Below are positions 25,691 to 37,981 of a DNA stretch of 64,000 bases, piece after piece. The translations under genes and the position numbers were made by a program. The notes under the pieces are model-generated. The model made no database searches. It was given only the letters and a program-made list of their open reading frames with translations, and was not told the DNA's origin. The stretch comes from Balneola sp. GTDB lineage: Bacteria > Bacteroidota > Rhodothermia > Balneolales > Balneolaceae. Positions within the stretch are counted from its first letter, which is position 1; every line of letters starts with the position of its first letter. The stretch covers positions 186,001 to 250,000 of the forward strand of contig JANQSE010000006.1 of NCBI GenBank assembly GCA_028284195.1, given 5' to 3'.

Positions 25691-28600
25691 ATGCCGGTGG
25701 TTCGATGGTTACATAAAATCTGGAACACCTTTTGGGCAATTGTTGTGGTTGTGTTTACCATTGTTGTAATAGGTGCGGGAGTTATTTTCGGGGTAGCCCA
25801 GCTCGACTCTTCTAAAACATTTCTTGCTACTCAAATCGAAAAAAACTTCAGTAAAAAATACAATGGTGTACTTACTATCGGAAAACTGGATGGGTTAATT
25901 CCATTCAGTATTGAATTGCAGGATGTGAACCTGTATCCGGATTCATCAAGTGTTCAGTCGGTATTTCACAGTGATAGCATATCAACAAATCTGGATTTTT
26001 TTGCGCTATTGGGGCAGCGTTTTGTAGTTACAGGCCTATCAATTAATACCCCCCGGATCATGATCGATCAGGAGTCAAAAAATTCATTATTGCATGCTTT
26101 AAAGAAAAAAAGCACGATAAGTTCACAAGATAGTGCAGGCATAGATGCTCCATTTTTCGAGATCCTTGCTCCTAATGCGATCGTTACAAACGGTACAGTA
26201 GTAATTAAAAATGCGTTTGAGGGCAGCAAACTTACACCTTATTCCGATAGTATAACCGTCCGGGATATTGATGTGTCAATGTATTTTGAGTATCACAAAA
26301 ATGAGCGGCTGCTTGATATTGAAAACCTTTCTTTTTTCACGAAAGAAATTGATTCAGGCAGAACAAAAATCAATGGGCAAATATACAGTAACGATCGTTT
26401 TCTTGAATTCAACTCATTCAATGTTGTAAATGAAAACTCCTATCTGAATATTACAGGCAGGCTGGATGGAATAGATATCTATAAGCCAAATTTGCTGGAG
26501 CAATTAAAAGAAGCAGAATATAACCTTGATCTCAGAGAGCTATCTATTTCTGATGCGAGAATGAATGATTTGGTATTTGATTCCGTGTTTTTTAAGAAAC
26601 CCCTGTTTTTATCTTCTGAAATTTCCGGCAGGCTGAACAATCTTGAATTGAATACAGCAAACATCAGGTATGGAAACTCTGAGATAAGTTTTTCAGGATT
26701 GATAGCGAATGCTTTTAGTGAGGATTCGTTAACCTATGAAGCAGCTATTTCTGAGATTATAGTTGATACTTCTGATGTAAAAGATTTCGCCCTTGATATT
26801 ACTCAATATCAATTAAACGCAATTCCGGACATTTCTATAACAGCTGATCTGTCAGGCAATGTACGTTCAATAAAGGGCAGGTTAGCAGGAATGGGAAACA
26901 GAGGCAAGATCACTTTTGATGGTGCCATTGGTTTTGGTGATCAAAAAAATATGAATGTAGCCTATCAAACAGATTCTCTGGATATTGGAAATCTATTCGG
27001 TAAAGTAATACAAAGTTCAAAAATCACATCAAGTGGAGAACTTATAACATCTGATTATACAAGCCCTTCAAGTTTTAAGTGGTTCAGTTTTGAGTCAACA
27101 GGCTTCGAAATTAATGATTCGACATTTAATAAAGTTAAAATAGATGCAATAGGTGAAGCAGGTGTTTTACGGCCAAATTTTCTTGTTAACGCCAAAGGTG
27201 GAACACTGCAGGGAAAAGGCATCATAGATATGTCTTCGCCAAACAATACCTCCATCAAATTTGATGGAACGGGGCAAAAACTGGATACGAAGTACCTATC
27301 TCAACTAAATGAGCTTGCCGAGGTAATTGCAGATATCGAATACACAGTTGATCTTCAGGGGGGTTCTTTTGATGATATTTCCGGCACGGTAAGTATCGAT
27401 GTACCATTAGCAACTGTAGGAGAAGACACACTAAGACCTCATTTATTATATGCTGATATTGCGAATACAGCTGGTAATGATAAATCTCTGCGTATCACAA
27501 CCACAGTGGCTGATATAACTTTGGAAGGAGATTATCAGCTCACAAATTTAAGAGCACTCTTTAACCACTGGAAAAGTTATTTTCAGAAAAGAGTTAAATC
27601 AGAGCTGTTTGCCTCAAGTTTAACGCCTGCTTCTTCTCATTCTGAAACTCAATTAATTAACCAGAATTTTGAATTTACCGGGCATATTAAAGATGTAGGG
27701 CTGGTTAAAAAATACTACCCGGAGTTTCCGGATATACAAACTTCATCAAGAATAACGTCCAACATCACATCAGATTCTTTACGTTTACTATTTAACGCAG
27801 ATATTACAGATACAAAATTCAGATTCAAAGAATACGAGGCAGATACATTAAGAACGCAGATAACCGGAAGTTTTCGTTATGATTCTGAATTAAAAGATTT
27901 CTCGAACTTTCTTGTTCAGAGCCATGCCGAAAGATTAAAAACTCCTTTTTTTAATACACAAGGGTTAATTGTTGATCTGGGGTTAGATAAAGACTCAATC
28001 TTCATAGAAACAAACATTAACGCTATAGGTGAAGAAGCAAGCTTAAAGTTGGTTTCTGACGGTGCTCTTACAGATTCTTCTGTAGTATTAAATTTGAATG
28101 ATTTTTTTCTGGGAAGCGAAGCTTATGCCTGGAAAAATCGTGACTCTTTAAAACTTATATACACAGATGAAAAGCGTCTTATTTTGGATACATTCGCCTT
28201 CGAGAATAACGAAGAGTTGTTTATTGCAGAAGGTACATTCAGTAACGATGTTGAAGATTCGGTAAGCTACAACTTTAGAGGGGTAAGGCTCGATCGTATT
28301 TCTGATTTGATAAATGGGGAAATTGGTTTTGGTGGGAATTTGAACGGTGCATTTACAACCCGCACTTTAACCCGCATACCAACAATTGTAGGAGAACTCT
28401 CTTTAGAAGCTTTGTCTTTAAATTCTCAAATTGTGGGAGATTTCAATATATCCAGTGTTTTTAACCAGGCGTTAAACCGGTTTGATACTAACGTTAGCGT
28501 TTATACCGATTCAACTATTTATCCTAACTATTTTCTGAGAAACGACAGGCAAGGACAAGATTTCGATTTTAATGGGTACGTACTTGCACCCGTAGCCGGA

Positions 28601-30382
28601 GAGTTCCCGGATGTTGATTCCCTTTTTTATTTCGATTTGGATTTTAATGCTATAGACCTTTGGGTGATTCCTTTTCTTGCACCAAAAGTTTTTACAGAAA
28701 TGTCGGGTACAGCTACCGGTTCAGGCCAAATTTGGGGCAATCTTGAAACCTATGACTTTCTTGTTGACTATGAAATTGGCACAGAAGATGCTGTTTATAT
28801 AAAACCTCGTTTCATTGATACCTATTACTATGGGCAAGGCCCGGTAACGTTCACGCGATCAGACGGTTTGGTTTTTGAAGATATCTTTTTGATAGATCCC
28901 TCGGGAGGTATGGCCGTATTAAACGGATGGTATAATTTTAATGATTTTGATCTTGTAAACAGTATGAACATTCAGCTGGAAATGGATGAATTTAAATTCC
29001 TAAATAATGAGTTTGATCCAACCGCGCCTTTTTTTGGGGAAGCCTATGGGACCGGAATTATTGGGATAACAGGTACAAATGTAGCTCCTGTACTTAGTAC
29101 AATTGAACCGATTAACATTTCTGACTTTTCGAGAGTTGAACTGCCTTTATTAGAAGAAACCGATTTGGATGAAGATAATAAATTCATTCGGTTCGTAGAT
29201 TCGTTCGATGAATTTGATGCTGATTCTGGAAGTGGCTCTGATAACACTACATTTACAATAGACGAAGAGCTGGATCTTTCTCAGTTAACATTCAAAGAAA
29301 GGTTCACGCTCGATCTGCAGTTTGTGGCAGATAATCCTATGGAAGTTCGGCTTATCTTTGATCAGGTGACTGGCGATATAGTTAGCACTAATGGAACCGG
29401 AAGGCTTAGAATAAGGCTCGAAGATGAAGACGTGAGTATTTTCGGGCGGCTTGATATTAGTGGAGGAGACTACCAGTTTGTAAGCGGCGATATATTTACA
29501 AGAAGATTTATATTAGAGCCAAACGGGAGTATTATTTGGGAAGGTGAACCCGATAATGCAAGGGTGAATATCGATGCGGTTTATTCTGCCCGCCCTAATA
29601 TCAGAACATTAACTACATCGAGAGCCGAGCTCGACTTAGATGATCCTGAAAGTGTGCAGAGGGCTCCTGTTGATTTGGTGCTAAACATTAGTGGCTCGTT
29701 ATCAAGCGTAGAAAATGATTTTTATTTCCGTCTTCCTGATAATTTTGAATCAAGGCAAAATTCAACACTTTCTACGCAAATCACTTCTTTGAATAGAAAC
29801 GAAGAAGAAAAATTATTACAAGCCACCAGTTTTCTTTTAATGGGAGATTTTATTCCTGCTTCTTCGGTAAATGGAGCCTCATCACTCACACAAAACTTTT
29901 CGGGCAGCAGTGCGGTTCTTAATCCGTTACTCTCAAATCAAGTAATCAGCCCTTTGCTTTCGAATCAAATTAATTCGTTATTGAGAAGCGATATTACCAG
30001 TTTTGATGTGGATTTTAATTTGAATACCTATAACCAGGTTGACTTAGGACTTGCACTTCGATTGTATAACGATCGGATTATTTTACGAAGAGATGGACAA
30101 ATAACCGGAGCTCAATCTAATATTGGGGATATCGGTGCCACCTACAAGATTAACAGAATATTTTCGGTTACGGCATTTCACAGGCAGGACCCAACATTCA
30201 GTAATTTATCCAGTGGGCAGGAATCACAACAGGCACAAGATATAAATGGGGTTGGAGTTGAGGCGCAGGTAAGTTTTAATACGTGGCAGGACTTTTTCAG
30301 GCGGTTAGGAAGCCCGTTTAGGAAGTTGTTTGGTACGAATAAAAAGGAAGAAGAAAATAAAGAGGATGAAAATCCTAGCTAA
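25691..30382 (+). CDS. tamB: TamB-like translocation and assembly module protein
   Basis: A 1563-residue envelope protein with an N-terminal membrane anchor (about 12-38) and a very long beta-rich body. The conserved DUF490/TamB C-terminal domain starts near residue 1190 (LDLQFVADNPMEVRLIF, ...GRLRIRLEDEDVSIFGRLDISGGDYQF, ...DLGLALRLYNDRIILRRDG). TamB-type proteins bridge the periplasm as hydrophobic grooves for phospholipid transport or outer-membrane protein assembly. No tamA gene is adjacent, but the barrel protein encoded at 32560 lies two genes away. Confidence 0.85.
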   Translation: MPVVRWLHKIWNTFWAIVVVVFTIVVIGAGVIFGVAQLDSSKTFLATQIEKNFSKKYNGVLTIGKLDGLIPFSIELQDVNLYPDSSSVQSVFHSDSISTNLDFFALLGQRFVVTGLSINTPRIMIDQESKNSLLHALKKKSTISSQDSAGIDAPFFEILAPNAIVTNGTVVIKNAFEGSKLTPYSDSITVRDIDVSMYFEYHKNERLLDIENLSFFTKEIDSGRTKINGQIYSNDRFLEFNSFNVVNENSYLNITGRLDGIDIYKPNLLEQLKEAEYNLDLRELSISDARMNDLVFDSVFFKKPLFLSSEISGRLNNLELNTANIRYGNSEISFSGLIANAFSEDSLTYEAAISEIIVDTSDVKDFALDITQYQLNAIPDISITADLSGNVRSIKGRLAGMGNRGKITFDGAIGFGDQKNMNVAYQTDSLDIGNLFGKVIQSSKITSSGELITSDYTSPSSFKWFSFESTGFEINDSTFNKVKIDAIGEAGVLRPNFLVNAKGGTLQGKGIIDMSSPNNTSIKFDGTGQKLDTKYLSQLNELAEVIADIEYTVDLQGGSFDDISGTVSIDVPLATVGEDTLRPHLLYADIANTAGNDKSLRITTTVADITLEGDYQLTNLRALFNHWKSYFQKRVKSELFASSLTPASSHSETQLINQNFEFTGHIKDVGLVKKYYPEFPDIQTSSRITSNITSDSLRLLFNADITDTKFRFKEYEADTLRTQITGSFRYDSELKDFSNFLVQSHAERLKTPFFNTQGLIVDLGLDKDSIFIETNINAIGEEASLKLVSDGALTDSSVVLNLNDFFLGSEAYAWKNRDSLKLIYTDEKRLILDTFAFENNEELFIAEGTFSNDVEDSVSYNFRGVRLDRISDLINGEIGFGGNLNGAFTTRTLTRIPTIVGELSLEALSLNSQIVGDFNISSVFNQALNRFDTNVSVYTDSTIYPNYFLRNDRQGQDFDFNGYVLAPVAGEFPDVDSLFYFDLDFNAIDLWVIPFLAPKVFTEMSGTATGSGQIWGNLETYDFLVDYEIGTEDAVYIKPRFIDTYYYGQGPVTFTRSDGLVFEDIFLIDPSGGMAVLNGWYNFNDFDLVNSMNIQLEMDEFKFLNNEFDPTAPFFGEAYGTGIIGITGTNVAPVLSTIEPINISDFSRVELPLLEETDLDEDNKFIRFVDSFDEFDADSGSGSDNTTFTIDEELDLSQLTFKERFTLDLQFVADNPMEVRLIFDQVTGDIVSTNGTGRLRIRLEDEDVSIFGRLDISGGDYQFVSGDIFTRRFILEPNGSIIWEGEPDNARVNIDAVYSARPNIRTLTTSRAELDLDDPESVQRAPVDLVLNISGSLSSVENDFYFRLPDNFESRQNSTLSTQITSLNRNEEEKLLQATSFLLMGDFIPASSVNGASSLTQNFSGSSAVLNPLLSNQVISPLLSNQINSLLRSDITSFDVDFNLNTYNQVDLGLALRLYNDRIILRRDGQITGAQSNIGDIGATYKINRIFSVTAFHRQDPTFSNLSSGQESQQAQDINGVGVEAQVSFNTWQDFFRRLGSPFRKLFGTNKKEEENKEDENPS

Positions 30383-30394
30383 CAAAAAGAATTA

Positions 30395-32548
30395 ATGAGT
30401 AGAAGCTCCAGGTTAAGTAGTCTCGAAGAAATAGTAGTAGACCTTATAAAAAGTAGCCCAAAAAAATCACTACAGAGAGAGGTGCTCGCAAATGCGCTTG
30501 CAATAACCAGCAAAAAAGAACACCGAAGGTTAGATAAAGTTGTTACCGGCTTGGTAAGCAAAGGAATGTTGAAAAGAGATGGAAAAACAATTCACTTTAA
30601 AACAATAAAACCCTCCAAAAAACAAGATCGAAGCCTGATAAAAGGCGTTATAGAATTAACCGTAAGAGGTACTGGTTATGTAGTGGTAGAAAATATGGAT
30701 GAAGATATTATGATTCCCAGGTACGACACTAATTTGTCGTTACCCGGCGATATTGTAAAAGTTAAAGTAACCGGAAATAAAAAAAACGGCCAGCCCAAAG
30801 GTAAGGTTATTGAAATTGCTGCGCGTGGTAAAGAATTCTACGTTGGTACATTCAGGAAAACAGGTGAAAAAACATACATTATTGAACCGGATCAAAAATC
30901 GGCGCATATAAACTTCTTTGTATTAAAAGAAAACATCAACAAAGCAAGCAATAACGATAAAGTACTTTTTAAATTAAAAAAATGGGTGCATCCAAAAGCT
31001 TTACCGGAAGCAGAAGTAATTTCCATTTTAGGGAAGTCGGGTTCTAATGATGCTAATATTCTGTCAATTCTGGCAGAAAATGAATTGAAGGCTGAGTTTC
31101 CGAAAGAAATAGAGAAGTTTGCAGAACAGATACCTGTCGAGATTCCTGAGGAAGAATTTGCCCGCAGAAGAGATATGAGAAAAGAATTTGTGTTCACTAT
31201 CGATCCTGCTGATGCCAAAGATTTTGATGATGCATTAAGTATACAAATTCTGGCAAACGGTAATTATTACTTGGGGGTTCATATCGCTGATGTTAGCTAT
31301 TATGTTGGTGCAGGCACCATGCTAGATAAAGAGGCTTATAGCAGGGGAACAAGTGTTTACCTGGTAGATCGTGTAATTCCAATGTTGCCCGAAAAACTGA
31401 GTAACGGCGTTTGCAGTCTGCGCCCAAATGAAGATAAACTTACCTACAGCTGTTTTATGGAAATTACACCAGTTGGAGAACTGGTTAACTATTCAATAGA
31501 AGAGACAGCAATCCACTCAAAACACCGCTTCACCTACGAGCAGGCTCAGGAAGTGCTTGATGGAGCAAATCACAAATACAGAAGAGAATTAAAGCATGCA
31601 GAGAAACTTGCAAAAGCGCTTCTCAAAAAAAGGTTTAAAGAAGGTGCTATTGATTTTGACAGCCCCGAACCTAAATTTGTGTTGGATCAGAGAGGTACAC
31701 CCATCGATGTTATAATTAAGAAAAGAATTTTTGCACACAGGTTAATTGAAGAGTGCATGCTAATGGCAAACAAAACGGTAGCGTTGCACATTGATAATTT
31801 GAGGAAAACTTCCGGTAAGCGAAAAAGTAAAAATCTGTTCCCGTTTTTTTATAGGATACACGATAAACCTGATGCAGAAAAACTTGCAGCTGTTGCAGCC
31901 CAGGTTGCTCCGCTTGATATCAGGTTTGAAGTAAATGACACTATGACCCCCAAACAAATAAATAATTTGCTTGAGAAGGTAAAAGGTTCTCCTGCGGAAA
32001 CTATTGTAAATGATCTATTACTAAGATCTATGGCAAAGGCGGAGTATTCTCCGGGAAATATTGGACACTTTGGTTTAGGATTTCCACATTATGCACACTT
32101 TACAAGCCCGATTCGCCGTTACCCCGATGTAATTGTTCATAGGCTATTAAAAGATTATGCTTCCGGCACATCTGGCAATAACTTCGAAACACTAACAAAA
32201 CACGGTGAACATTGTAGTACCAGAGAGCGTGCTGCAATTGACGCCGAACGAGATTCTGTAAAACTGAAGCAAGTGGAATTTTTAAGTACAAAAATAGGCG
32301 AAATCTTTAACGGGGTAATAACCGGTGTAATAGAAAGAGGTATTTTTGTAAACCTTAAAAATGTACATTGCGAAGGAATGGTAAAAGTCTCAGATTTAAC
32401 CGGAGATTATTATATATACAATCCTAATATGCATGCTTTAGTTGGAAAATCATCCGGCCGGGCTTATAAACTTGGCGATGATTTAAAAGTTAAGGTGCAA
32501 AACACCGATATTCATAAAAGACAAATTGATTTTACTCTAGCACACTAA
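30395..32548 (+). CDS. rnr: Ribonuclease R
   Basis: A 717-residue 3'-5' exoribonuclease. It has an N-terminal winged-helix part (about 1-70), cold-shock domains (about 80-240), the RNB catalytic domain with the acidic cluster DPADAKDFDDA at 270-280, and a C-terminal S1 domain (GEIFNGVITGVIERGIFVNL). It degrades structured RNA. It lies between tamB and the large barrel protein gene in a continuous plus-strand run with gaps of about 12 bases. Confidence 0.93.
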   Translation: MSRSSRLSSLEEIVVDLIKSSPKKSLQREVLANALAITSKKEHRRLDKVVTGLVSKGMLKRDGKTIHFKTIKPSKKQDRSLIKGVIELTVRGTGYVVVENMDEDIMIPRYDTNLSLPGDIVKVKVTGNKKNGQPKGKVIEIAARGKEFYVGTFRKTGEKTYIIEPDQKSAHINFFVLKENINKASNNDKVLFKLKKWVHPKALPEAEVISILGKSGSNDANILSILAENELKAEFPKEIEKFAEQIPVEIPEEEFARRRDMRKEFVFTIDPADAKDFDDALSIQILANGNYYLGVHIADVSYYVGAGTMLDKEAYSRGTSVYLVDRVIPMLPEKLSNGVCSLRPNEDKLTYSCFMEITPVGELVNYSIEETAIHSKHRFTYEQAQEVLDGANHKYRRELKHAEKLAKALLKKRFKEGAIDFDSPEPKFVLDQRGTPIDVIIKKRIFAHRLIEECMLMANKTVALHIDNLRKTSGKRKSKNLFPFFYRIHDKPDAEKLAAVAAQVAPLDIRFEVNDTMTPKQINNLLEKVKGSPAETIVNDLLLRSMAKAEYSPGNIGHFGLGFPHYAHFTSPIRRYPDVIVHRLLKDYASGTSGNNFETLTKHGEHCSTRERAAIDAERDSVKLKQVEFLSTKIGEIFNGVITGVIERGIFVNLKNVHCEGMVKVSDLTGDYYIYNPNMHALVGKSSGRAYKLGDDLKVKVQNTDIHKRQIDFTLAH

Positions 32549-32559
32549 TTAGTAATGAT

Positions 32560-35500
32560 ATGAAAGCCCGAATCCTCCTAACCTTTATACTAAGTGTAAT
32601 TATTGCCGGTACCGGTTTTGCTCAATACTTCTCATATGGGAAAAACCGGGTTCAGTACGATGATTTTGATTGGAGATATATACAATCAAAGCATTTTGAT
32701 GTGTACTATTACAGTACCCAGAATTATGAATTGGCTGAATTTACAGCAATGAGCATAGAAAGTGCTTATAAACAGATCAAAGAAGATTTTGATCATGAAT
32801 TAACAGATAGAATATCTGTAATTATTTATGATTCACACAATGATTTTTCGCAAACTAATGTAGTAACTCTTCCTACAAGTGCAGAGGGTATTGGCGGGGT
32901 AACAGATAAATTTAAAAACAGAATTACACTTCCATTTGATGGAGAATACAATGATTTTCGTCGCACTATCCACCATGAATTAGTACATGCCATATTTAAT
33001 GATATGTTTTATGGTGGTACTATTACTTCGATTATCCAAAATAATATCCAGCTTGTGTTTCCATTGTGGTTCGAGGAAGGCCTTGCAGAGTATAGTGCTT
33101 TAGGTTGGGATACGAATACAGATATGTATGTTCGTGATGCTGTTATTAACAACTATCTACCGTCTTTACAATATCTAAGTGGGTATTATGCATATAGAGG
33201 AGGGCAATCGTTTTGGAATTATATTGCTGAAGTGTATGGACGCGAAAAAATAGGAGAAATTCTTCAACGTATTAAAACCAGTAGAAATGTAGCATATGGG
33301 CTTTCAACAGCAACGGGTATGAATATGCAAGAACTATCAAAAAGCTGGATGGAGTATTTGAAAAAACGCTACTACCCGGAAGTTGCTGAGCGAGAAAAAT
33401 CTGACAATATTGCAACACTTTTAACTAAAAGAGGCTCTTCTGGAACGTATAATACTAGCCCTGCTATTTCGCCACAAGGTGATAAAATTGCAATGATTAC
33501 CAATGGAAGAGGATTCTTTGATGTTACGGTAATTAGTTCGATTAACGGTCAAAAGCTTAAAACGCTGATTAAAGGCGAAGATAATCCGGATTTTGAAGAA
33601 CTGAATATTCTTAATCCAAACTTAACGTGGTCTCCTGACGGAACAAAAATTGCTATGGCTGCGAAAACTCGCGGGCAAGATGACCTGGCAATAATTGAGT
33701 ATTCAACGGGAGAAGTTACTAAAATCAAATTTCCGGAAATAGATGCAATTGGTTCAGTTAGTTGGTCGCCTGATGGCAGCAAGCTCGCTTTTGACGCTAA
33801 TATAGGGCCGTATCAGGATATTTTTATCTATGATATTCAGAGTAAAGAACTTAGTAACATCACTCAGGATTTTTATACCGACCAACAGCCTGCTTGGGGA
33901 CCGGATTCAAAATCTATTTATTTCGTTTCAGATAGAAGTGATAGAACTGAATTGCGTAAGTACAGTATCAATCATAGTTTGTTTTATGGTGAAGGTTTTT
34001 ATCAAACCGATATTTATAAGCTGGAGCTAGATTCAAAGCATGCCAGCAGAATTACACAAACCTTAGAATGGAATGAAATACAGCCCTCTGTAACTCAAAC
34101 AGGTCGGCTACTTTTTATTTCAGATGAAAACGGAATACAGAATATTTACGAGATGGATCTGGAAAGCAGAACATCCAATCCATTGACTGATCTTCAAGCA
34201 GGTATTTTTCAGATTTCTGTAAGCGTAGATGGAAGTCGCCTGGCATTTAATGCTATAAATGAAGGGTATCTCGACATCTTTTTGTTAAAATCTCCACTTA
34301 ATCGTGCAAAACAAGAAGCTTTGAAGCTTAATTACTGGGCGGAACGCCGCGCTAAGGAGACAAAAGAACAAAGAGTACCAGCGTTAGCGTATGCAAATTC
34401 AATTTTTCAAGATGGTGTAACATCTATCGAAAAAGTTGATAAGAAAGAAAAAGAAGAGAAAAAAGCGCTTCAGCCAGTCGTAGAAAACCCCAATGAAAAT
34501 ATCGACTTCAGGAATTATGTATTTGCCGACGACGTAATCCAAGACACAACACTGGTATTAAGAGATATTGAGATATTCAATGTTGGCAAAAACATTACAG
34601 AGGATGGGAGGTATATTCCTAAAAGTTACCGGTTAAAGTTTGATGTTGATATCGCTTATAGTCCTTCTTTGGTTGCATCAACTTATGGATCTTACGCTCT
34701 TACTCAGTTCATATTAAGCGATCTGCTCGGAGATCATCAACTGGCAATGGGAACCAACTTTGTATTTGATTTAAAAGAAAGTGATTACAGTTTTCAATAT
34801 GGTAATTTAAAGCGTAGAACAAATTTCTTTATAAGCTATTTTCATACATCCCGAAAATTCCAAAACTTTTCAGGAGACCTTCTGCGATATAGAACATATG
34901 GATTGGGTTTAACGGCTCAATATCCTTTTAACAAGTTTAGGAGGCTCGACTTCAACTTGAATTACATAAATGTAGATTTGGATTATAATAATGTTTTCGG
35001 TGTTATTAATAACACAGGTAATTCTGGTTCTTTCGTAGATGATCCAAGTGAGAATAGCAACTTTGCTTATCCGGAGATAATTTTTACTGAAGACAGAACA
35101 AAACCAGGTTTTATAACTCCACGGGGAGGTGTTCGTTATTCTATCGGTTTAAGTGGAAGCCCTGCGATAGGGAGTACTGCACCGGAATTTATTTCTGTTC
35201 TTGGTGATTTTAGGAAATATTTTGATCTCGGATATCAATATACCTTTGCTCTGAGGTATTCCGGAGGTGCTTCAATTGGAAAAGATGCACAAAACTATTT
35301 TATGGGAGGAAAACTAGGTTGGATAAATCAGCGTTATTCAGATAATAGCCTGCCTTTAGATCGTATTTCAGATAACTTCTTTACTGTTCCGGCACTCCCG
35401 TTACGCGGATATGAGCTTAATGAAATAAATGGCACAAATTTCAGTTTGGTTAATGCAGAATTTAGGTTTCCGTTGTTTGCAGCATTAGTTCCAGGTGCTG

Positions 35501-35865
35501 TACCAATACTACCTCTTTATAATGTTACTGGGTTGGCGTTTTTGGATGTAGGTACGGCGTGGGGCACTGATATAAATTATGGCCTTCTCGAAACTGCCAG
35601 CTCAAATGCACCATTAGCGGTAAATGATAAATCTTTAGATCTGAAGGTGGCTAGAGAAGAGATTGGTTATATAGATTTGGGAAACGATGAATTTCGTCAA
35701 ATACCTTATTTAAAAGGGGATCTTTTGATTGGAGCTGGCTTTGGTTTCAGGTCAATTCTGTTTGGTCTACCTTTTGGGTATGATATAGGTTGGGCTTATG
35801 ATGGAGAAAGAGGTTTTAAAGGAAAAAAAGCTGTCCACTATTTCTCAATTGGCATCGATTTTTAA
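32560..35865 (+). CDS. Peptidase-MA, beta-propeller and outer-membrane beta-barrel protein
   Basis: A 1101-residue exported protein (signal peptide 1-21, ending GFAQ). Residues about 40-280 resemble peptidase MA (M61-like gluzincins), with HELVH at 139-143 and the downstream WFEEGLAEYSA supplying a third zinc ligand. From about 300 to 600 there are TolB/PD40 propeller blades (ISPQGDKIAM, WSPDGTKIAMAA, WSPDGSKLAF). The last 400 residues are BamA/TamA-like barrel strands ending in aromatic Phe (HYFSIGIDF). Such three-part proteins occur in Bacteroidota and Gemmatimonadota, with no known function. Confidence 0.82.
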   Translation: MKARILLTFILSVIIAGTGFAQYFSYGKNRVQYDDFDWRYIQSKHFDVYYYSTQNYELAEFTAMSIESAYKQIKEDFDHELTDRISVIIYDSHNDFSQTNVVTLPTSAEGIGGVTDKFKNRITLPFDGEYNDFRRTIHHELVHAIFNDMFYGGTITSIIQNNIQLVFPLWFEEGLAEYSALGWDTNTDMYVRDAVINNYLPSLQYLSGYYAYRGGQSFWNYIAEVYGREKIGEILQRIKTSRNVAYGLSTATGMNMQELSKSWMEYLKKRYYPEVAEREKSDNIATLLTKRGSSGTYNTSPAISPQGDKIAMITNGRGFFDVTVISSINGQKLKTLIKGEDNPDFEELNILNPNLTWSPDGTKIAMAAKTRGQDDLAIIEYSTGEVTKIKFPEIDAIGSVSWSPDGSKLAFDANIGPYQDIFIYDIQSKELSNITQDFYTDQQPAWGPDSKSIYFVSDRSDRTELRKYSINHSLFYGEGFYQTDIYKLELDSKHASRITQTLEWNEIQPSVTQTGRLLFISDENGIQNIYEMDLESRTSNPLTDLQAGIFQISVSVDGSRLAFNAINEGYLDIFLLKSPLNRAKQEALKLNYWAERRAKETKEQRVPALAYANSIFQDGVTSIEKVDKKEKEEKKALQPVVENPNENIDFRNYVFADDVIQDTTLVLRDIEIFNVGKNITEDGRYIPKSYRLKFDVDIAYSPSLVASTYGSYALTQFILSDLLGDHQLAMGTNFVFDLKESDYSFQYGNLKRRTNFFISYFHTSRKFQNFSGDLLRYRTYGLGLTAQYPFNKFRRLDFNLNYINVDLDYNNVFGVINNTGNSGSFVDDPSENSNFAYPEIIFTEDRTKPGFITPRGGVRYSIGLSGSPAIGSTAPEFISVLGDFRKYFDLGYQYTFALRYSGGASIGKDAQNYFMGGKLGWINQRYSDNSLPLDRISDNFFTVPALPLRGYELNEINGTNFSLVNAEFRFPLFAALVPGAVPILPLYNVTGLAFLDVGTAWGTDINYGLLETASSNAPLAVNDKSLDLKVAREEIGYIDLGNDEFRQIPYLKGDLLIGAGFGFRSILFGLPFGYDIGWAYDGERGFKGKKAVHYFSIGIDF

Positions 35866-35877
35866 CTGATTACTAAG

Positions 35878-37161
35878 TTAAAAACTACCGGAGATCAAAA
35901 GTCTCTGGTAGTTTTTCACAGGGTCAGTGTAATATACAAAGACAGTGTATTGTTGCTTCACACTCGAAATGCTATCATTTACTGGTACAATTTCAGATTT
36001 GTTACCCAGTTCTGGCTTTAGAAAATATTTATACCGATAAACCCCTTCTTTTAATAGCAAGCTGGTAATCCATTCCTCCGTTTTGGGATCATAAGCGAGC
36101 CTTGAACCTCTTGACAGTAGCCACGAGTTAAAATCGCCAGCGACAAACACTTCACTATTTCGAATATTATTTGGCTTAGCATTTAGCCGAAAAGTAACCT
36201 CTGTATATCTTGAATCTCTTTCTTTTTCAGGCTGTCCAAAATTGAAAGCATTTCTCTGAGTTGGCTTTGCTGAAAAGTTAAGCAGATCTGGTTTTAGGAT
36301 AATTCTGGGTGGTGTATATTCAGGCTGCCAGTCTTCAATTTTTGTAAGATTTATATTAAGCTCTGTAAGATCTAATGGAATGAAATCGAAGCTGGCAGCA
36401 AAAGAACTTTTTCTGGGAGTATAAAATCGAATTTTGCCTGGAGTTGTGATATCAAAAGTTTCTGTAGATCTAGAAGAGCCCCAAAATCTGTTTTGAACAA
36501 ATTCGAAACCAAGATCAAACTGTGGAAATTTTATGTTTTTTGGGTATTCATAAACTGAAAATAATTGATCTACTGCAGGAGAGTTACTTCCGGAATTAAA
36601 AACAGTTTCTACACTGGAGATTAACTTTCCTTGTTGCTCAGTAACAAAAAAGGGTAGGCTGAATAATTTTGTATTTGATACATAATCATATACGTGAACC
36701 ATGTAATTGCCACTGGTTATAAAAGAAAGTTCTCGGTTAGGAAATTCGTATTTATAATGAAAGTAGCCTGGTTTTGAAAAGGCATTTCTTTCTCCTCCGG
36801 TTATAACTAATTCATTTATTCCATCTATAAACCAAACTTCAGGGATATTACTTGGTTCCCAATGCTGGTTATAATGCTCGAATTTTAACCGGAATTGCCC
36901 GGGCAGAGATGTAAGTTCATCAAATTCCAGAACCAGCGTCTCGTTCTTATTAAGATTAATTATCGGGGGGTTGCTTTCATTGCTTGCACGATAAAGTTGC
37001 AGGCTTTGTATAGATTGAGGAGGAGAGAGCTGATTATTTACAAGTAACAAGCCTTGGCTTATATTTTTATTAACAAGGCCTGAGCCCGTCTCTAAAATCT
37101 CAGAAGAACCGAAACAAGCCATGGCTAGAAACCCGACAGCAAAGAATAAGCTTTTATACAT
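35878..37161 (-). CDS. DUF5103 protein (type IX secretion plug-type)
   Basis: About 427 residues from the ATG at 37161, giving MYKSLFFAVGFLAMACFGS, a lipoprotein-like signal. An in-frame start 21 bases upstream lies deeper inside dapF and is less likely. The N-terminal part (LQLYRASNESNPPIINLNKNETLVLEFDEL) and the C-terminal fold (FVAGDFNSWLLSRGSRLAYD) match DUF5103, the family that includes the plug protein of the SprA translocon in type IX secretion. The start overlaps dapF by 8 bases. Its last codons are embedded in a terminator hairpin. Confidence 0.72.
   Translation of the reverse strand: MYKSLFFAVGFLAMACFGSSEILETGSGLVNKNISQGLLLVNNQLSPPQSIQSLQLYRASNESNPPIINLNKNETLVLEFDELTSLPGQFRLKFEHYNQHWEPSNIPEVWFIDGINELVITGGERNAFSKPGYFHYKYEFPNRELSFITSGNYMVHVYDYVSNTKLFSLPFFVTEQQGKLISSVETVFNSGSNSPAVDQLFSVYEYPKNIKFPQFDLGFEFVQNRFWGSSRSTETFDITTPGKIRFYTPRKSSFAASFDFIPLDLTELNINLTKIEDWQPEYTPPRIILKPDLLNFSAKPTQRNAFNFGQPEKERDSRYTEVTFRLNAKPNNIRNSEVFVAGDFNSWLLSRGSRLAYDPKTEEWITSLLLKEGVYRYKYFLKPELGNKSEIVPVNDSISSVKQQYTVFVYYTDPVKNYQRLLISGSF
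35880..35916. terminator. Bidirectional terminator inside the DUF5103 3' end
   Basis: AAAAACTACC (35880-35889) pairs perfectly with GGTAGTTTTT (35907-35916), with an inner GAGA/TCTC continuation and a 7-base loop. T-runs occur on both strands, so it can end the plus-strand tamB-rnr-barrel unit and the minus-strand ccmB-DUF5103 unit. The left arm contains the DUF5103 stop codon and the stem encodes its last residues. Confidence 0.8.
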
Positions 37162-37981
37162 CAATTTCACCTTCAAATACAAAGGCAGCTGGTCCCATCA
37201 ACTTTATATTAGTGTATTTTTCTGAAGCGGCATTAAATGAAAAGGAAACAGTTAGTGTGCCACCTGCAACCAGTATTTCATACTCAAAATCATTTGCTTT
37301 ATTTTTTGATTTAAAATGTGTTGCAATTGCAGAAGCAATAGCGCCTGTACCACACGCAAGTGTTAAATTTTCTACTCCACGTTCATAAGTTTGCAGGTGA
37401 ATCGTATTGCCGTTTTTAGCACAAATAAAATTAACGTTTGTGCCCGGAGGATTAAATGAGTTATGATGCCTGATGGCAGACCCTTTCTTAATCAACTCTT
37501 TTTCAAGTTTAAGCTGTTCGGGATCTACAAATTTTACAATATGTTCGGTTCCTGTATATAGCTGGATTAATGGCTCTTGCTGTAATTCAATTTCTTTTGG
37601 CATGTTTACATCAGGGAAACTCACTGAAACCGAGTTATGCTCTAAATCAACTTCAGCTTTGTAAACAGCATTATGAACATTAAAGGTTTGTGATAACGCA
37701 TAACCATTGCTGGCAGCAAACAAGGCAAGGCAGCGACCTCCATTTCCGCACATTCCGGCATCGCTTCCATCTGCATTACGATAGGTCATAGTATAATCGA
37801 TGCCTCTTCGCTGGGGTAATTCCAATGCTATCAGCCCATCTGCACCGATGCCAAATTTTCGATCACAAAGTTTAGGGGTGAATGCAATGATTTCATCCAG
37901 GGTAAATTTAGTATCTCTGTTATCGATAACAACAAAGTCATTACCGGTGCCTTCCATTTTATGAAATTTAATTCGTGCCAT
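37154..37981 (-). CDS. dapF: Diaminopimelate epimerase
   Basis: About 275 residues from an ATG that shares one base with the holB stop codon; a GTG one codon earlier is an alternative. It interconverts LL- and meso-diaminopimelate for lysine and peptidoglycan. The two catalytic cysteines lie in GMCGNGGRC and TLACGTGA, and FHKMEGTGNDFVV is the usual amino end. Overlaps with both neighbours point to one operon ccmB-holB-dapF-DUF5103. Confidence 0.94.
   Translation of the reverse strand: MARIKFHKMEGTGNDFVVIDNRDTKFTLDEIIAFTPKLCDRKFGIGADGLIALELPQRRGIDYTMTYRNADGSDAGMCGNGGRCLALFAASNGYALSQTFNVHNAVYKAEVDLEHNSVSVSFPDVNMPKEIELQQEPLIQLYTGTEHIVKFVDPEQLKLEKELIKKGSAIRHHNSFNPPGTNVNFICAKNGNTIHLQTYERGVENLTLACGTGAIASAIATHFKSKNKANDFEYEILVAGGTLTVSFSFNAASEKYTNIKLMGPAAFVFEGEIDV

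Follow-up and report, generated by a model that had tools for sequence, protein, structure and literature searches.

A predicted zinc-protease head, a TolB-like propeller and an Omp85 barrel in one Balneola polypeptide encoded beside tamB and rnr

What might a single polypeptide that appears to combine a metallopeptidase, a beta-propeller and an outer-membrane barrel do when its gene stands beside tamB and rnr? The question is raised by a locus in the window, by which we mean the whole 64,000-nucleotide stretch of Balneola sp. DNA that was analysed (assembly GCA_028284195.1, contig JANQSE010000006.1, positions 186,001-250,000). Reading and translation of the open frame placed the gene exactly at 32560-35865 (+), with an ATG start and a product of 1101 amino acids, hereafter the fusion protein. 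From the N- to the C-terminus it comprises a signal peptide, a gluzincin-type Peptidase_MA head, a six-bladed TolB-like propeller and a 16-stranded Omp85 barrel of the BamA type. The signal peptide (32560-32622 (+), residues 1-21) was recognised by eye, with the end ...GFA-QY, and the structural model has an N-terminal helix at residues 2-15. That model was obtained with AlphaFold2: an alignment of 28 rows gave a pLDDT of 72 and a pTM of 0.57, and one of 65 rows gave a pLDDT of 82.0 and a pTM of 0.78, with matches to TolB and BamA. A scan for promoters and terminators returned signals at or below the level of shuffled sequence.

The head (32665-33384 (+), residues ~36-275) has a mixed beta, then helical fold, with pLDDT values mostly of 80-94 in the 65-row model, and its residues 71-268 match Pfam Peptidase_MA_2 (PF13485) with a score of 46.8 bits (cut-off 32.4 bits; E 3.9e-12). 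Within it lies HELVH (32974-32988 (+), residues 139-143); with a downstream glutamate, residues H139, E140, H143 and E173 form a predicted gluzincin signature. Because HELVH sits inside an above-cut-off Pfam match and is invariant in its clade, its occurrence as a chance motif was ruled out. Glu173 and Glu177 are both invariant among close relatives; residue 177 varies in paralogues, and Glu173 is kept in all six paralogues tested and in 76 of 76 aligned rows of the active type defined below. Glu173, in LWFEEGLAEY (33076-33078 (+)), is the probable third ligand of the predicted zinc site. The protease case is one of sequence, from which the head would be expected to bind zinc and to cleave proteins. 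We know of no activity, substrate or location for any member of the family.

The propeller (33400-34308 (+), residues 281-583) contains PD40 repeats (Pfam, E 6.7e-18) and matches the NCBIfam TolB model at E 1.7e-35, under the 343-bit cut-off of that model because the match covers the propeller only. In a structure search with the model, whose match list was filled by propellers and in which head and barrel were barely probed, TolB matched with a Z of 28.0 and an rmsd of 2.2 over 245 residues. TolB is closest to the propeller by sequence and by fold, and the closest structures include Pal-bound TolB. These matches would suit an envelope enzyme with another substrate, acting in peptidoglycan-bound or lipoprotein processing with a propeller that binds a Pal-like lipoprotein; however, only the fold is shared with TolB, and we hold this role to be quite improbable.

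A linker (34309-34659 (+), residues 584-700), first helical and then disordered, carries the conserved segment IDFRNYVF (residues 648-655) and leads to the barrel (34687-35862 (+), residues 710-1101). In the model, what precedes the barrel is either helical or disordered, and no POTRA family was matched in Pfam at E up to 1; likewise, the NCBIfam matches of the fusion protein at that limit include no TamL or TamA profile. Sixteen barrel strands were counted by eye from the DSSP line of the model, and Foldseek matched the model to BamA barrels at E 3e-11 to 1e-9 (TM at most 0.62 by target length). The window protein has no match to Pfam Omp85 (PF01103), but the barrels of orthologues do match above the 24-bit cut-off: a search of 19 genomes gave seven same-locus orthologue matches at 33.7-55.7 bits (G036 55.7, G039 42.9, G008 39.0, G009 38.8, G040 36.9, G037 35.9 and G010 33.7), and in one named relative (L085) all three domains lie above their Pfam cut-offs, with PF01103 at 43.6 bits. 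The tetrapeptide LRGY (35401-35412 (+), residues 948-951) equals the BamA loop-6 motif (V/L)RG(F/Y), as quoted for F. johnsoniae BamA in the available part of the source, with Arg949 in 113/113 and Gly950 in 108/113 aligned rows. At loci of a single family code (f6; L193 and L195-L198), loop 6 reads LRAT and not LRG(F/Y), possibly through misalignment. The three-part fusion proposed by the initial annotation is thus borne out by a Peptidase_MA match with an intact zinc signature, a TolB propeller match and a barrel that is predicted to be of full size, neither too small nor unfolded.

On which side of the membrane the head would lie bears on the earlier suggestion of a surface-anchored protease. 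An N-terminal head and an even number of barrel strands would place the head in the periplasm, and the available text on PlpD, an Omp85 protein with an N-terminal enzyme, describes that enzyme as held there; surface anchoring is therefore disfavoured. A surface-exposed protease would require the head to be passed outward through the barrel, as PlpD was formerly held to do according to the 2024 PlpD paper, which in the part available overturns this view for the model case. Moreover, passage would require unfolding of the head and six-bladed propeller, together more than 500 residues, and we consider outward passage highly improbable.

The three-part chain is not unique. A relative is present in 58/58 near-relative genomes, with the window genome counted and with one genome (G016) giving a propeller-sized match only. 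Of 247 sampled Bacteroidota genomes, 161 contain one with an E of 1e-30 or lower. Named relatives fall in Balneolia and in one record with the title Ignavibacteriae; others, with an identity of 23-27%, come from records that bear the titles Bacteroidales, Flavobacteriales, Cyclobacteriaceae and Chitinophaga. A search of plasmids gave partial matches only. A pattern search with two peptide patterns, from which the best 80 of 579 relatives were kept, yielded 79 distinct loci, and the 7 of these without an open frame of 1000 amino acids were excluded before counts were made. The alignment of 113 rows consists of the window protein, the other 72 pattern-search loci and 40 loci hand-picked from the 161 positive genomes so as to spread over family codes, with between one and five from each; loci of the different searches share organisms, and the counts are accordingly not independent. 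Weaker matches (E near 1e-90 to 1e-104; codes f11-f13 and f18, for example) lie outside the sample and may be paralogues. Paralogues of similar build that carry HExxH do occur in Balneolia. In the window genome, two further HExxH proteins of like build and ~1000-1100 amino acids (L040:5843-9190 and L133:2067-5036, strand -) were found, one of 1115 amino acids with HEFTH, a propeller and a Peptidase_MA_2 match above cut-off, and one of 990 amino acids with HELLH and no Pfam match.

Across this alignment, H139, E140, H143 and E173 occur together in 76 of the 113 rows, the active type, and not in the other 37, which are 30 Bacteroidia loci (L091-L120) and L207, L213, L214, L220, L221, L224 and L225. 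Among the zinc-less rows, H139 is retained in none, E140 in one, H143 in three and E173 in six. The head scaffold residues P168, W170 and G174 are retained in all 37, as are D845, R885, R949, G950, E967, R969, D996 and G998 of the barrel. HExxH strings in two inactive rows (L091 and L108) were rejected as zinc motifs, as they align to window residues 130-134, away from the zinc site. Since the active type is defined by the zinc residues themselves, the evidence lies in the single change of state on a tree built only from the columns after the head. This was a quick, unrooted tree without a mixture model; its 72 rows comprise 66 of the 113 aligned proteins plus 6 paralogues, the paralogue branches are long and the inactive clade has 87% SH-aLRT support. 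Because the paralogues also carry HExxH, a loss in Bacteroidia explains the change more simply than a gain would, within the limits of an unrooted tree with long paralogue branches. A Bacteroidia form that merely sits beside an active copy was ruled out in 12 Bacteroidia genomes: each has one place that matches head and barrel, and the other matches are pieces covering propeller positions. Mean identity to the window protein is 54% for the head, 38% for the propeller and 38% for the barrel in the active type outside Balneolia, where the head is the best-conserved part, and 29%, 24% and 24%, respectively, in the inactive type.

These patterns are consistent with an outer-membrane-anchored periplasmic zinc protease in the quality control of outer-membrane assembly, with a role like that of BepA, and we give this reading a rough probability of 0.4. 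The zinc site kept in the active rows with its single change of state, the well-conserved head and the full barrel with its loop-6 motif argue for it. However, Bacteroidia keep the whole architecture without the zinc site, so that the family has a job for which proteolysis is not needed. Alternatively, the fusion protein could be an assembly factor of the insertase or chaperone kind. Its work would then fall to barrel and propeller, with a head that does no more than bind clients and with catalysis as an option of one clade. The architecture and barrel motifs of the 37 zinc-less rows, the invariance of Arg949 and the persistence of the family across Bacteroidia after the one change at the zinc site would all agree with this, but in the window's own clade it is the head that is most conserved. 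Insertases of the Omp85 family receive clients via POTRA domains, and the fusion protein lacks such a domain. The genome, furthermore, encodes both BamA and a TamL-like protein. With the site lost in a whole group and the rest kept, we place the quality-control protease first and the non-catalytic assembly factor second, as a possible but rather doubtful reading.

The neighbourhood of the gene offers a further line of evidence. In the window the genes stand in the order aroK, aroB, tamB, rnr, fusion gene; from aroB on, the successive gaps measure 0, 12 and 11 nt. The putative tamB (25691-30382 (+), 1563 amino acids), the first gene of the conserved tamB-rnr-fusion run, is named from its length, its position and a weak signal with the NCBIfam TamB profile (18.8 bits against a cut-off of 825); rnr (30395-32548 (+)) encodes ribonuclease R (TIGR02063, 763 bits, above cut-off). 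The reported link to tamB and rnr is real and conserved among relatives. Balneolia contributed 46 loci in all, and rnr lies directly upstream in 42/42 of those with enough upstream sequence, and tamB within 3 kb upstream in 41/41 of those with at least 3 kb of it. When the 73 loci outside Balneolia were scanned with a profile built from 34 Balneolia TamB proteins, a same-strand upstream tamB was found in seven (L083, L209, L210, L215, L216, L217 and L227, all with E at or below 1e-68); the other 66 had none. The idea that the link is confined to Balneolia was therefore rejected; the seven comprise six loci from four other family codes and the named relative L083. All seven fall among the 36 active-type loci outside Balneolia, and none among the 37 inactive-type loci. 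In the metagenome assembly with L083, the rnr that precedes the fusion gene is broken into two open frames (L083:7852-9942), by a frameshift or an error.

Both the link and the near-zero spacing in the window favour the quality-control protease, but the link is not obligatory, since no tamB is in view at the 19 active-type loci of the Rhodothermia side, that is, of the same class by code (L189-L206, and L084 by its place in the tree). L211 and L212 have rnr and no tamB in view; at L211 only 1.8 kb of contig precedes the gene. Because rnr sits between tamB and the fusion gene, the run may also be fortuitous and owe its persistence to a conserved housekeeping operon. In Bacteroidia the neighbours of the fusion gene are metabolic genes; by sequence reading, the recurring ones resemble an M20-like peptidase, a class II ribonucleotide reductase, a metallo-hydrolase and a TauE-like protein. 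On the other side of the fusion gene in the window, a convergent gene (35878-37182 (-)) encodes a type IX secretion 'plug' protein (NF052315, 201 bits against a cut-off of 100), which adjoins the fusion gene in 23 of the 38 Balneolia loci that extend far enough to show it. SprA is also present in the window genome, within a 2447-aa frame.

The same gene order would fit a dedicated TamB partner, a third kind of TAM outer-membrane subunit that works beside TamL or replaces it at TamB, all the more as no TamL match was found in the fetched flanks of the 79 loci. The initial annotation had gone further, with a protein that may stand in for a missing TamA, and this part did not survive. A PF01103 search found six Omp85 genes in the window genome. 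One is BamA (TIGR03303, 378 bits against a cut-off of 297), and another (L038:9950-12355 (-)), on the contig of tamB but ~250 kb from it, encodes a TamL-like POTRA-Omp85 protein of 801 amino acids with a signal peptide. This protein matches NF052279 over positions 34-747 of 747 at 345.5 bits (E 6.8e-103; cut-off 400). With it in the genome, the fusion protein need not stand in for TamA. An Omp85 frame of 764-873 amino acids with a similar PF01103 match occurs in 18 of 19 genomes, counting the window genome, whose protein is the one compared with TamL. TamL and TamB are, moreover, reported to be conserved across all Bacteroidota analysed in the available part of one study (PMC12045153). Yet the fusion gene is found with tamB, much as tamL is in other groups according to the available part of another (PMC4494059). 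As rnr also intervenes and the link is absent from Rhodothermia-side and Bacteroidia loci, we consider a dedicated TamB partner unlikely.

Under the quality-control reading, the POTRA-less barrel would anchor the propeller and the zinc head at the outer membrane, on its periplasmic side. The task of propeller and barrel rim would be to retain or detect outer-membrane clients that are unfolded or have stalled, and any that fail would be cleaved by the HExxH head. Co-production with TamB would be explained if both serve outer-membrane building. The periplasmic side of the head, the class of clients and any contact with TamB or BAM are inferred parts of this proposal. An extended version, which we judge speculative and on balance unlikely, would have one polypeptide take clients at a BamA-type barrel, read them with the propeller and destroy failures with the zinc head on a TamB-linked route, with the Bacteroidia head now a non-catalytic client binder in a lineage without the tamB link.

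The existence of uncharacterised Omp85 subfamilies is a recognised gap in knowledge. Intact and lost versions of the zinc site in the same architecture, separated by a single change, make the need for an Omp85-borne enzyme in outer-membrane assembly testable by a one-residue mutation, and the conserved tamB link supplies a concrete candidate partner. The literature searched on peptidase-propeller-Omp85 fusions yielded only the text of Heinz and Lithgow and works citing their class, with no report of the zinc head, of zinc-site loss or of the tamB link, and the available parts of papers on BAM of Bacteroidota do not name the fusion protein. The strict retention of the zinc site in some bacterial groups, its one loss elsewhere and the tie to tamB look new. 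The soluble BepA has a helical repeat domain where the fusion protein has a propeller and a barrel. The comparison with this E. coli M48 enzyme, described in the accessible text as a periplasmic zinc metallopeptidase of outer-membrane protein quality control that promotes LptD maturation or degradation, is one of role and not of descent.

The barrel-propeller architecture itself is known. It fits the WD40-Omp85 subfamily named by Heinz and Lithgow in 2014, which was defined in a survey of all bacteria and is uncharacterised (PMC4104836); both have an N-terminal TolB-like propeller and an Omp85 barrel without POTRA domains. The available main text of that survey describes only the propeller and does not contain the word 'peptidase', and its supplementary tables may list the head. 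The PlpD paper, as far as available, counts WD40-like Omp85 proteins among intriguing targets. PlpD and other patatin-like Omp85 proteins likewise fuse an N-terminal enzyme to an Omp85 barrel but, unlike the fusion protein, PlpD is described with a lipase-type enzyme, one POTRA domain, a homodimeric state and no propeller. The 'Metallo' subfamily (Metallophos-Omp85) of the same survey also joins an enzyme domain to an Omp85 barrel, but with a PF00149 phosphoesterase, and the window genome encodes such a protein separately (contig C11, L039:2208-5969, 1253 amino acids); the part of the 2014 survey available calls this type a 'metalloprotease', and the Pfam name is calcineurin-like phosphoesterase. 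TamA and TamL share with the fusion protein an Omp85 barrel and, in other groups, the linkage of their gene to tamB (PMC4494059, in the part available), but they carry POTRA domains, and the TamL-like protein of the window genome, compared with the TamL lipoproteins described for other Bacteroidota, is the product of a separate gene that does not lie beside tamB and encodes no evident lipobox.
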